From assembly GCF_014196715.1 (NCBI RefSeq), contig NZ_JACIEF010000001.1, positions 1,098,872 through 1,162,871 on the forward strand: a stretch of 64,000 nt of DNA, in the 5' to 3' direction. Below are positions 59,576-64,000 of the stretch, piece after piece. Every line of letters starts with the position of its first letter. Position 1 is the stretch's first letter. The notes beneath the pieces were generated by a model. It had not been told where the DNA came from, did no database searches, and was given only the letters and a program-made list of their open reading frames with translations. The stretch comes from Pedobacter zeae (GTDB lineage Bacteria; Bacteroidota; Bacteroidia; Sphingobacteriales; Sphingobacteriaceae). The position numbers and the translations under genes are program-made.

Positions 59576-59911
59576 ATGCCGTATAAAGAAAGGGACATTA
59601 ATAAAATGTATTATACCATGGGCGAGGTGACTGAAATGTTTAATGTAAACGCGTCGCAGATCCGTTTTTACGAAAAAGAATTCGATATCCTGCAACCTAA
59701 GAAAAACAAGAAAGGCAACCGCTTATTTACTCCCGAAGATATAGAGAACCTAAAGATCATTTTCAATTTGGTTGATGAAAAAGGCTTTACCTTAAAAGGC
59801 GCGAAGGAATACTTAAAGAACAATAAATCGGATGTGAAAGAGAACCAGAGAATTATTGATTCATTGGAAAAGTTGAAAAGTTTTTTGGTCAACCTGGCTG
59901 AAGAACTTTAG
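59576..59911 (+). CDS. MerR-family transcriptional regulator
   Basis: The 111-residue protein starts with a MerR winged helix: YYTMGEVTEMFNVNASQIRFYEKEFDIL, then GNRLFTPEDIENLKIIFNLVDEKGFTLKGAKEYLKNN. The usual coiled-coil dimerisation helix is short and no metal-binding C-terminal domain follows, so the effector, if any, is unknown. This compact form is common in Bacteroidota. It is divergent from alaS. Confidence 0.88.
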   Translation: MPYKERDINKMYYTMGEVTEMFNVNASQIRFYEKEFDILQPKKNKKGNRLFTPEDIENLKIIFNLVDEKGFTLKGAKEYLKNNKSDVKENQRIIDSLEKLKSFLVNLAEEL

Positions 59912-60057
59912 GCAGCTATTTGATTTGTACATCGGTTAATTGCATTAATTAAAGCGTTTTAAAAATACATTTTTGTAGTTTTTTATTTATTTTCCTATAT
60001 TAGGATCAACAATACAAAAATCACCCTATTTTTTATTAACCAGTTTAACTCCTGCTT

Positions 60058-60270
60058 ATGAAAATATGGTGTGCATTGTTGCTCTTCTCTTTTCCCTATT
60101 TTTTATTTTCCCATAACCATTTTGGTGGCTGTTCTTTCGTAATGGTTAACCATGTAGGTACCTGTGCAAATCCTTTTGGAAGTATGCCGGCTCCCAGCCG
60201 GGAAATGGCGATTGTACAGGTTTTTAATTTTTATGATCAATTTCTAACCAGGAGGGATCATGCGCTTTAA
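60058..60270 (+). CDS. Short possible secreted peptide upstream of the HhH-barrel gene
   Basis: A 70-residue frame with a plausible signal peptide (MKIWCALLLFSFPYFLFSHN) and two Cys. Its end overlaps the start of the next gene by 11 bases. No family recognised. The coding potential is uncertain: the frame may be chance, or a coupling leader for the next gene, whose strong AGGAGG lies inside it. Confidence 0.4.
   Translation: MKIWCALLLFSFPYFLFSHNHFGGCSFVMVNHVGTCANPFGSMPAPSREMAIVQVFNFYDQFLTRRDHAL
60250..60256 (+). promoter_or_regulatory. Strong Shine-Dalgarno for the HhH-barrel gene
   Basis: AGGAGGG lies 3 bases before the ATG at 60260. Such a near-perfect sequence is unusual in this window, where most starts lack it, and it supports the 60260 start. 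Confidence 0.7.
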
Positions 60271-62290
60271 GAGCTTAATAGCCGGGTTTGTAATGATCGG
60301 ATTCATGGCAAATGCCCAAACCAATACTCAGGAGACAGATATACGTGATATTTTGGAGAGCATGGCCGAAAGCCTCCCGGATGATTACGATATGACGGAA
60401 TTGGTAGATGTATTGGAGAAATACCGTAAACATCCAATTAACCTGAACCGAACTACGGTTGAAGAATTGAAAACACTGGTTTTCCTATCTCCCCTGCAGA
60501 TCGGGAACTTCTTTAACTATATAAAAGAAAATGGCCTGCTCGAGGATGTGCTCGAATTACAAAGCATTGATGGTTTTGATATTAAAACCGTACGTACCAT
60601 CCTGCCATTTGTAACGGTGAACAATATCACGGAATACCGGCAACTCCGCTTTAAAAATATGATAAATGCTGGCGGAAATGATTTGATGATGCGTTTCGCA
60701 CAGACCTTACAAAAACAAAAAGGGTATACAGATTTACCCGGTAACCGGTATTTAGGCTCGCCCGAAAGATTCCAAATGCGCTACCGGTATCATTATAGTT
60801 CAATTCTATCAGCAGCCGTAACTTTTGACAAAGATGCTGGCGAAAAATTTATAGGCAAACCCTTCGATTTCTATTCAGGCAATATCACCTTATTAAAATT
60901 AGGTAAGCTAAAAAAATTGGTGCTTGGGGATTATGCATTGCAATTTGGGCAGGGTTTAACGTTATGGTCGGGTTTTTCTTTCGGCAAAGGTCCCGATGTA
61001 ACCAGTGTAGCTAAAAAAGATTTAGGTTTAAGACCTTATAACTCTACCAACGAATATTCTTTTTTTAGAGGAACTGCTGCAACAATTAACTTATTTAAGA
61101 ATGTAGAGCTCACTCCTTTTGTTTCTTTCCGTAATCTTGATGCCAGTCAGAAATCAGATTCCGAAGGAAATCTGATTCAGTCTACAATTAATCAGACCGG
61201 ATTGCATAGAACACCCACAGAGATTAAGAATAAAGGCGTGCTGCCACAAAGCGTACTGGGTACAACCATTCAATATACCAAAGATGAATTTGCGGTTGGT
61301 GCAATTGCTTATCATACCCATTACAGGAATCGTTTTGTTACACAAACAGCAGCCTACGACCGGTATAGTTTCACAGGAAAATCGTTAACCAACCTGGGCT
61401 TGTTTTATAATTATACCTATAAAAACATGTATCTCTATGGCGAGGTGGCTAAGGGTTTAGTTGGTGGAGTTGCCTATATTAATGGTATCCTTATCAGTTT
61501 GTCTCCAATCGTTTCTGCTGCCTTAACTCATCGTAATTACGCTAAAGATTACCATAGCTTCTTTAATCAGGCGGTATCCGAATCAACCGAAGCGGTAAAT
61601 GAAAAAGGCTTATATTTTGGCTTAAATATTAATCCAAATAAACATTGGGCATTTTCTTTTTATGGCGATTATTTTAGGTTTCCGTGGTTAAAATACCGCA
61701 TAGATGAGCCATCAAAGGGTTACGAGGTTTTAGCTCAAGCCCTTTATACACCAAGCAAAACCGTTAAAATTTTAGTTCGGTTCAAAACAGAACATAAACA
61801 ACAAAATACCGATTTGGATGTTGCTGTAAATTTTTTGGATGATGTAAAAAGAGAGGGATACCGGGCAGAGGCATCCTGGCAATTAACTGATAATTGGCGC
61901 TTTCAAAATCGGATAGAGGTTTCTCAATATAAAAAAGGTAGTGCCAATAGGGCGTTCGGCTATCTCATTTTTCAGGATATAGACTATTCGCCGATGTTTG
62001 CCAGGCTAACCGGAAATGTGAGATTTGCCTATTTCAATACGCCAGGCTATAACAGTAGAATTTACGCCTACGAAGATGATGTGTTGTACAGTTTTGCTTT
62101 TGGTATGTATAGTGGAAAGGGTGTTCGTACCTATTTGAACCTAAGGTATAATGTAATCAAGAGACTAAGTTTTTGGATGAGGTATGGCTTGTTTGTGTAC
62201 AGGGATGTAGAAACGGTAGGGACTTACCTGGATGAAATTAAAGGCAATAAAAAATCGGAAATTAAAATCCAGTTACGTTATCAATTTTAA
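60260..62290 (+). CDS. Secreted helix-hairpin-helix protein with predicted outer-membrane barrel
   Basis: The 676-residue protein has a signal peptide ending ANAQ near residue 20. Residues about 50-120 hold two ComEA-like helix-hairpin-helix units (PINLNRTTVEELKTLVFLSP and LLEDVLELQSIDGFDIKTVR). The remaining 550 residues are rich in alternating aromatic and polar strands (for example YYHYSSILSAAVTFD and KLVLGDYALQFGQGLTLW) and end in RYQF, a C-terminal Phe of the kind that marks outer-membrane barrels. The comEC gene follows after 3 bases. ComEA-type HhH domains bind DNA; the fused barrel suggests DNA binding at or transport through the outer membrane, which is inference. Confidence 0.85.
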   Translation: MRFKSLIAGFVMIGFMANAQTNTQETDIRDILESMAESLPDDYDMTELVDVLEKYRKHPINLNRTTVEELKTLVFLSPLQIGNFFNYIKENGLLEDVLELQSIDGFDIKTVRTILPFVTVNNITEYRQLRFKNMINAGGNDLMMRFAQTLQKQKGYTDLPGNRYLGSPERFQMRYRYHYSSILSAAVTFDKDAGEKFIGKPFDFYSGNITLLKLGKLKKLVLGDYALQFGQGLTLWSGFSFGKGPDVTSVAKKDLGLRPYNSTNEYSFFRGTAATINLFKNVELTPFVSFRNLDASQKSDSEGNLIQSTINQTGLHRTPTEIKNKGVLPQSVLGTTIQYTKDEFAVGAIAYHTHYRNRFVTQTAAYDRYSFTGKSLTNLGLFYNYTYKNMYLYGEVAKGLVGGVAYINGILISLSPIVSAALTHRNYAKDYHSFFNQAVSESTEAVNEKGLYFGLNINPNKHWAFSFYGDYFRFPWLKYRIDEPSKGYEVLAQALYTPSKTVKILVRFKTEHKQQNTDLDVAVNFLDDVKREGYRAEASWQLTDNWRFQNRIEVSQYKKGSANRAFGYLIFQDIDYSPMFARLTGNVRFAYFNTPGYNSRIYAYEDDVLYSFAFGMYSGKGVRTYLNLRYNVIKRLSFWMRYGLFVYRDVETVGTYLDEIKGNKKSEIKIQLRYQF

Positions 62291-62293
62291 ACA

Positions 62294-64000
62294 ATGTTTA
62301 AATCTGAATATGTTTTTGTCAGGATCCTTTTCCCCTTTCTTTTAGGTATCTGTGTTTTTTATTTCTTTCAGATGAGCCTATATATTCAGCTATTCACTGT
62401 AATGCTGCTTGTTATTTTACCGGGCACTTTATTTCTAAACATTACCTATAAAAGATTAAGCATATATCGTTATAAAGGAACTATTGGGCTTTTAATTTTT
62501 CTACTTTTTTTCAGTCTTGGCGCTTTGCTCTGCTTGCTCAATAATGAAAGCCTGAACCAAAGTTACTTCGCCAAAACTCCCTGCAATTACTTAAAAGTTT
62601 GGGTGAATGATGAACCACAACAAAGCAATACGCTCTTGCGCTTTAAAGCTAAGGTAATATCAGGATATCAAAAAGATAAACAGGTGCGGCTAAGCGGACA
62701 GATGCTTATTACCTTAAGATTGGACAGCATAAGCCCCATAAAACTTAAATATGGCGACGAAATTATAATTCCGGCTAAATATACAGTGGTAGAGCCTCCA
62801 TATAATCCTGCAGAATTCGATTTTAAAGCCTGGTTAGGTAGCCAGAATATTTACCACCAGGCATTTATGGATCAGGACCACATTGTTATCAATAAAAATA
62901 ACATTAGTAACCCCATTATAAAGAGGGCTTTAAACTTAAGGGAAAAACAGGTTGCAAAATACCGGAGACTGATTAAAAACGACGAGGCTTTTGCCGTGGC
63001 CTCTACTCTTATTTTAGGCTACCGGGCCGATTTAAATCAAGAAACTTTATCGGCATATTCCAGAACAGGAACCATTCATGCTTTATCAGTATCAGGGGCA
63101 CACGTAGCGATTATCTATGTTGTTTTAGATTTGCTGTTCTTTTTTTTGAATAATAACCGGGCATTAAAGATGCTGAAACTCCTGCTTATCTGTGCTTTGA
63201 TTTGGGGATATGCTTTGTTAACCGGACTATCCCCTTCCGTGGTTCGCTCGGCCATAATGATTACTGTTTTAATCATGGCCAAAGGTTTATCAAAGAAAAC
63301 AAACAGTTATAATGTTCTGGCCTTTTCAGCCTTTTGCCAGTTGGCTTATCATCCATTTTTAATCTGGGATGTTGGCTTCCAACTCTCCTACCTGGCTGTA
63401 TTTGGTTTAATTTATCTTCAGCCTAAAATTTACAACCTCCTTTATGCTGGGCCAAATTGGATAGATAAATTATGGAGTTTTACCTCTATGTCTTTAGCTG
63501 CACAAGTAGTTACGTTTCCATTAAGCATTTATTATTTCCATCAATTTCCGCTTTACTTTCTTTTTGCCAATCTTTTGATTACCATCCCATTGATATTAAT
63601 GATGTATTTAGGAATTGTAGTCTTAATTCCGCCATTCGGTTTCCTGTCCCCGGTTTTAGAATGGATCATAAATTTTACCAATGCCGTACTGAAATGGATG
63701 GCCAGTTTACCGTATGCCAGCTTTTCATCCATATGGATTAATTTACCCGAATTAACCTTATTGAGCCTTTTTTTGGGATTGGCCGTTTATGCATTGGCCA
63801 AATTTAATAAACAACTTTTGTTCACTTCTTTATTGTTATTGGTTTGTTATCAGCTTTTGGTTATGTGCGACGGTTTAAAGGCTTTTCACCAAAGGAAAAT
63901 CATTTTCTTTTCCCTCAGAAAAAACTATGCGGCTGCTTTTATTAATGGAAAAGAAGCTGTTTTAATTTCAGATCTTACCAGAGAGGATAAAAACTATTCA
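62294..64000 (+). CDS. comEC: ComEC/Rec2-family DNA transport channel, partial (3' end outside window)
   Basis: Inner-membrane channel for single-stranded DNA in natural transformation. The frame is open for 569 codons without a stop to the window edge. After an N-terminal membrane block it has an OB-like domain (about 90-200), then the competence domain with HALSVSGAHVAIIY near residue 260, GLSPSVVRSAIM near 310, and FQLSYLAVFGLIYLQ near 365. The beginning of the C-terminal beta-lactamase-like part would be outside. The gene lies 3 bases after the HhH-barrel gene, probably one operon. Confidence 0.95.
   Translation, partial: MFKSEYVFVRILFPFLLGICVFYFFQMSLYIQLFTVMLLVILPGTLFLNITYKRLSIYRYKGTIGLLIFLLFFSLGALLCLLNNESLNQSYFAKTPCNYLKVWVNDEPQQSNTLLRFKAKVISGYQKDKQVRLSGQMLITLRLDSISPIKLKYGDEIIIPAKYTVVEPPYNPAEFDFKAWLGSQNIYHQAFMDQDHIVINKNNISNPIIKRALNLREKQVAKYRRLIKNDEAFAVASTLILGYRADLNQETLSAYSRTGTIHALSVSGAHVAIIYVVLDLLFFFLNNNRALKMLKLLLICALIWGYALLTGLSPSVVRSAIMITVLIMAKGLSKKTNSYNVLAFSAFCQLAYHPFLIWDVGFQLSYLAVFGLIYLQPKIYNLLYAGPNWIDKLWSFTSMSLAAQVVTFPLSIYYFHQFPLYFLFANLLITIPLILMMYLGIVVLIPPFGFLSPVLEWIINFTNAVLKWMASLPYASFSSIWINLPELTLLSLFLGLAVYALAKFNKQLLFTSLLLLVCYQLLVMCDGLKAFHQRKIIFFSLRKNYAAAFINGKEAVLISDLTREDKNYS

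Follow-up and report, generated by a model that had tools for sequence, protein, structure and literature searches.

How DNA crosses the outer membrane of Bacteroidota is a question raised by ComEC itself, which was found in all 80 genomes examined, yet most of the Bacteroidia among them are secretin-free. In a 64,000-nucleotide stretch of the Pedobacter zeae genome, hereafter the window (contig NZ_JACIEF010000001.1, positions 1,098,872 to 1,162,871), a plus-strand gene at 60260..62290 encodes a 676-residue protein, here called the HhH-barrel, in which a helix-hairpin-helix (HhH) domain is joined to a predicted outer-membrane beta-barrel, and comEC starts at 62294, three bases after the end of this ORF. 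The initial annotation had proposed that this single polypeptide combines outer-membrane passage with DNA capture, giving a secretin-free uptake route in Bacteroidota. Based on a predicted structure and on gene context, we tentatively hypothesize that the HhH-barrel may act as an outer-membrane DNA-uptake port feeding ComEC, and that it is probably not the main DNA receptor. A port is the simplest reading that accommodates the operon with comEC, the ComEA-like fold and the large predicted barrel. Our confidence in it is limited, since the linkage to comEC is confined to one family and the DNA-binding hairpin is lost in Bacteroidia.

A ComEA-like fold joined to a predicted barrel

The structure prediction proposed by the initial annotation to look for a closed barrel plus an HhH domain was carried out, and the AlphaFold2 model (pLDDT 88.1, pTM 0.86) contains a predicted barrel joined to a ComEA-like (HhH)2 fold. 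The barrel spans residues 139-676 (60674..62287) with about 24 strands by manual count, and its PDB fold matches are MtrB, ushers, TonB-dependent receptors, AlgE and LptD; the strand pattern, these matches and the C-terminal phenylalanine are consistent with an outer-membrane beta-barrel protein. No Pfam match to the Plug or TonB_dep_Rec domains was found in the protein at E<=1, though the predicted barrel fold resembles TonB-dependent receptors, and the secretin domain PF00263 likewise gave no match at E<=1. Inward- and outward-facing residues were assigned by hydropathy alternation, a procedure that uses neither coordinates nor a control barrel and includes strand parts outside the membrane; the putative inward positions were more conserved than the outward ones (0.66 vs 0.52), and the putative inward face of the window protein carried more basic than acidic residues (26 K/R, 15 D/E), an excess that both sequence groups also showed on average. 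A large barrel with such a net basic lumen, widely distributed in free-living Bacteroidota, might instead bring in DNA or nucleotides as nutrients, not for transformation, a role that we regard as very unlikely and against which stands the linkage of the gene, in the window's family, to comEC and not to nucleotide catabolism.

The HhH domain, a single (HhH)2 unit at residues 46-118 (60395..60613) with helices at 46-117 in the model, is predicted to lie on the periplasmic side of the barrel because it precedes strand 1. Its match to HHH_3 (PF12836, residues 57-119) is weak (E 1.1e-4, 22.7 bits, below the cut-off of 27), TIGR01259 comE matches at E 0.0029, and two PDB ComEA chains align by sequence at E 0.79 and 2.3. 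The best fold match of this region alone is ComEA 8dss_B, at 1.1 A over 63 columns of the predicted model; the window protein thus has the predicted (HhH)2 fold of ComEA, with PF12836 below its cut-off. The description given by the initial annotation, a 676-residue ORF with an HhH region near the N-terminus and strands running to a terminal phenylalanine three bases before comEC, was borne out.

In ComEA, glycine-containing hairpins contact DNA. The first hairpin of the window protein, FLSPLQI, is glycine-free, the second, DGFD, has one glycine left, and the HhH region is net acidic (8 K/R, 11 D/E). An alignment of 24 sequences from the family shows no variation at S57, L59, Q60 and I61 of the hairpin stretch, and consequently the loop of hairpin 1 looks repurposed rather than decaying. 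Balneolaceae relatives have mostly ComEA-like hairpins, such as IPGLN and GIG, many of them carrying the glycines, and hairpin 1 has PG followed by a hydrophobic residue in 7 of 20 aligned loci from other classes; in relatives with intact hairpins the HhH-barrel may work like ComEA. On the two features compared, glycine hairpins and a soluble or inner-membrane-anchored periplasmic form, the window protein is not a member of ComEA, residues 139-676 being a predicted outer-membrane barrel.

Linkage to comEC and the evidence against a port

Loci were fetched for the 80 top-ranking of 579 relatives, most of them Pedobacter, and in every one of these 80 a comEC-like ORF comes directly after the HhH-barrel gene. 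Among 30 loci of the phylum sample taken with 1.5-kb flanks, comEC follows the gene in 7/7 loci of the window's family vs 0/23 of the others. The conserved linkage expected by the initial annotation is accordingly upheld within this family, and was rejected as a trait of all Bacteroidota: comEC lies within 20 kb of the gene in all six carriers belonging to the window's family and in none of 40 carrier genomes of other families. This confinement is one of several observations that weigh against a port. The glycine of hairpin 1 is absent in all 20 aligned Bacteroidia loci outside the window's family, and because it is missing both there and here, DNA capture by the HhH domain of the window protein is doubtful. 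Secretins coexist with the HhH-barrel in more than half of the carriers outside Bacteroidia (19/34), and competent Riemerella needs a different predicted outer-membrane protein, RS04915 (PMC8459023).

A somewhat unlikely alternative is that the HhH-barrel has no connection with DNA and serves generally in transport or assembly at the outer membrane, with the HhH region as a docking or plug domain and an adjacency to comEC that arose once in the Sphingobacteriaceae line. In favor of such a role, and likewise against a port, the gene is near-core in Bacteroidia, where a wider profile matches 128 of 148 genomes at 1e-10 (88 of 103 genera; three weakly, 9e-11 to 6e-13). It is linked to comEC in one family only, its conserved neighbor encodes a PorV-family barrel and no competence gene, its glycine-free FLSPLQI hairpin is yet strongly conserved, as expected of a protein interface, and no separate ComEA-type ORF of at least 90 aa was found near any of 49 loci, the HhH-barrels themselves aside. 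What argues against this alternative is that adjacency to comEC persists throughout the 80 fetched loci and extends over three genera of the family, that the HhH region is closest to ComEA both by sequence (TIGR01259 and the PDB ComEA matches) and by fold, and that canonical hairpins occur in Balneolaceae relatives. If the protein is not a port, an outer-membrane protein that is nearly universal and listed in databases as 'ComEA family' would have to be renamed and assigned a function.

The conserved neighbor, a same-strand gene whose product is about 275 aa long, immediately precedes the HhH-barrel gene in 24/40 regions outside the window's family and 3/9 inside it; in the Sphingobacteriaceae set a PorV-family gene precedes 47 of 75 testable loci, five of the 80 being without upstream sequence. 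Three upstream proteins match the NCBIfam PorV/PorQ model NF033709 (5.6e-5, 1.1e-14 and 2e-15), all below the cut-off. This PorV-like gene is a more widely conserved neighbor than comEC. The window lacks it, with no ORF matching at E<=10, as do the ten fetched loci closest to the window (L039-L048), and no orthologue was found in the window genome, the best match (3.5e-5) lying in other, longer frames. It is also missing in most of a second group, L097-L118, and more than one loss is suggested. In 13 loci within L140-L153, all outside Bacteroidia, a divergent protein of about 316 aa (cluster 2) is encoded two genes upstream.

The HhH-barrel is encoded in most sampled Bacteroidota genomes: among 392 genomes drawn evenly from the phylum, a profile built from Pedobacter has matches at 1e-5 in 268 (120 of 178 genera), the weakest of which could be HhH-only. 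Non-carriers in the Bacteroidia sample include 4/4 genomes of family f4, which is Flavobacteriaceae-like by gene order around comEC (the names of f1 and f4 were inferred from homologues and gene order). At least five members of a single genus in the window's own family are non-carriers as well.

Secretins, the type IV pilus and a separate ComEA-type protein

In the window genome, PF00263 gave no match at E<=1, and all five matches to the type IV pilus ATPase PF00437 fell below the cut-off. A hand-picked set of 80 genomes from the phylum sample (26 Bacteroidia carriers of the HhH-barrel, 34 carriers of other classes and 20 non-carriers) yielded 25 with a PF00263 match, namely 1/26, 19/34 and 5/20, respectively. 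The absence of pilQ and the secretin-free route put forward by the initial annotation therefore fit the window genome and Bacteroidia, and do not extend to the phylum. Since 15 of the 20 non-carriers are also without a secretin, the HhH-barrel is not the one secretin substitute of Bacteroidota, and genomes of this kind must rely on other routes or take up no DNA. The presence of ComEC, matched in 80/80 of these genomes, is for that reason uninformative on co-occurrence. Six Bacteroidia genomes (G378, G261, G349, G021, G088, G103) have a secretin in a long frame of 550-741 aa, which possibly belongs to an atypical Cytophaga-type type II secretion system, a system grouped with type IV pili in PMC6668835.

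The HhH-barrel as the sole HhH or ComEA-like protein of the genome was ruled out by a 299-aa protein on contig C2 with three HHH_3 stretches and, by eye, an N-terminal hydrophobic stretch; it is net basic (42 K/R, 29 D/E over 259 residues). Of the idea of one polypeptide for both outer-membrane passage and DNA capture there remains a predicted ComEA-like fold joined to a barrel; the missing glycines of hairpin 1 and this separate triple-HhH protein speak against the capture part.

If the HhH-barrel is a port, extracellular DNA would pass through, or be held at, the barrel with its putative net positive inward face. The periplasmic HhH domain would dock partners or bind DNA weakly in the window protein, given its glycine-free hairpin 1, and that of Balneolaceae relatives with intact hairpins would bind DNA more classically. 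The separate, putatively membrane-anchored triple-HhH protein would then pull DNA in and hand it to ComEC, and the small PorV-family barrel encoded upstream in many relatives probably assists or plugs the port. A port of this kind would need no type IV pilus. Helicobacter ComB is another outer-membrane DNA uptake route; a true port would differ, as a DNA channel of the outer membrane, from both the secretin and the ComB routes. Being widely conserved and, in one family, encoded beside comEC, this barrel with its ComEA-type domain offers a target for single-gene deletion.

The Riemerella-type route

A transposon screen in Riemerella anatipestifer identified RA0C_RS02645, RS04915 (predicted outer membrane) and RS04920 (DUF5689) as essential for transformation, and RS04915 was already proposed by its authors as the outer-membrane route of DNA (PMC8459023); transformation also drops in tonB mutants (PMC8383284). 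The 299-aa triple-HhH protein of the window genome resembles RA0C_RS02645, and from length and HhH position we infer that the two are counterparts. Riemerella itself probably lacks the HhH-barrel, a reading based solely on genomes of f4 and f3 that appear related to it.

A strong DUF5689 gene occurs in all 15 non-carriers outside the window's family (4.9e-43 to 1.5e-61), and in most of ten listed regions the frame before it encodes about 890-980 aa and a gene of the endonuclease family is placed divergently (domains checked in one region). Nine such barrels were used to build profile A4, which is equated with RS04915 on the basis of domains and gene order. In the hand-picked set, A4 detected an RS04915-like barrel (E<1e-200) in 15/15 non-carriers outside the window's family, nine of which supplied the profile's own sequences, in 0/5 non-carriers of that family, in 5/26 Bacteroidia carriers and in 0/34 other carriers; for Bacteroidia alone Fisher's test gives p=2.5e-4, and 0.19 without the Flavobacteriaceae-like f4. 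In the evenly drawn Bacteroidia sample the barrel is found in 10/20 non-carriers vs 22/128 carriers (p=0.002; p=0.09 without f4). Strict mutual exclusion was rejected by the coexisting cases, and what is observed is a trend towards complementarity, not a rule.

The coexistence of both barrels in 22 of 128 carriers, and in 5 of the 26 hand-picked Bacteroidia carriers, would suit a competence accessory, an outer-membrane docking site keeping DNA or a ComEA-type protein close to ComEC, with DNA conducted by a different barrel such as an RS04915-like protein or a TonB-dependent receptor; the requirement for RS04915 and the fall of transformation in tonB mutants reported for Riemerella point the same way. 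We consider this role improbable, and the window genome argues against it: A4 has no full-length match there, the best (1.4e-13, contig C3) covering model residues 6-153 only, and a Riemerella-type pair was rejected because the sole DUF5689 match is weak (1.7e-17) and lies behind SusC/SusD-like frames, named from their N-termini.

The paired genes for the RS04915-like barrel and the DUF5689 protein are flanked in Flavobacteriaceae-like genomes by a divergent gene (L216:1075-2151 (-), L216:2266-6483), which in L216 encodes an endonuclease/exonuclease/phosphatase family protein (PF19580, 8.6e-106); this nuclease could process incoming DNA. A similar arrangement is seen in L218, L220, L221, L225 and L227-L229, the domains having been checked in L216 only.

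A broader version of the port reading, which appears rather unlikely, would make the HhH-barrel the general DNA gate of Bacteroidota: a phylum-wide translocon free of secretin and pilus, in which a 24-strand barrel with its own ComEA-type domain and an ancestral PorV-like companion, as SprA with PorV, would hand DNA to the triple-HhH protein and ComEC, and which would have been displaced in Flavobacteriaceae by RS04915/RS04920.

Other features of the locus

The HhH-barrel begins, by eye from the translation, with a signal-peptide-like N-terminus (residues 1-20, 60260..60319). The comEC gene (62294..64000, plus strand; PF03772 2.2e-56, DUF4131 3.3e-22) is cut by the window end and has a 696-aa frame in the genome; the full frame is present in locus L191. 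Upstream lies a gap (59912..60259, plus strand) holding only the start of a 70-codon ORF (60058-60270, plus strand), which extends, in a different frame, over the first bases of the HhH-barrel gene. Versions of 743 aa, extended upstream in frame, make up 11 of the 15 top homologue clusters, and because the matching window ORF sits in another frame, this N-terminal extension is probably a start misannotation. The gene is split over two frames in two Pedobacter genomes (L071, L087). Farther upstream are a MerR-type regulator (59576..59911, plus strand; PF13411 1.1e-21) and, at 57-59 kb on the opposite strand, an alanyl-tRNA synthetase-like frame read from the translation.

Comparison with known systems

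Some members of the HhH-barrel family are already named 'ComEA family DNA-binding protein' in databases. In the open-access literature searched, no description of the fusion was found, nor any paper treating natural transformation, Pedobacter and comEA together; within that literature the family appears to be annotated and its architecture undescribed. The HhH-barrel resembles ComEA (Geobacillus stearothermophilus 8dss; TIGR01259, PF12836) in its predicted (HhH)2 fold, in a leader before helix 1 close to PINLN and, in one family, in its linkage to comEC. It differs in its fusion to a predicted barrel, in the loss of hairpin 1 glycines in Bacteroidia, in its net acidic HhH region and in sharing its genome with a separate ComEA-type protein. 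The PilQ-type secretin with a type IV pilus is the uptake system of Vibrio cholerae and Neisseria, and the HhH-barrel would serve the same outer-membrane step; in contrast, it is predicted to be a monomeric barrel, PF00263 has no match in protein or genome at E<=1, and no pilus ATPase lies above the cut-off. FimD/PapC ushers, MtrB and other large barrels are similar in predicted overall size and fold, but identity is 7-9% over the usher alignments, and the HhH-barrel has no usher, Mtr or TonB-receptor Pfam domain at E<=1. As for PorV/PorQ, small barrels of the type IX secretion system, many relatives encode, directly upstream, a protein of this broad family that matches NF033709 below cut-off, although it is, at about 275 aa, shorter than true PorV/PorQ models and was not found in the window genome. 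The nearest precedent is the Riemerella RS04915/RS04920/RS02645 system, for which a secretin-free route built on a barrel together with an HhH protein was proposed earlier (PMC8459023) and whose RS02645 has a putative counterpart here; there, the barrel, which in the homologue checked has CarboxypepD_reg and a weak Plug domain, and the HhH protein are encoded by separate genes, whereas in the window genome they form one polypeptide.

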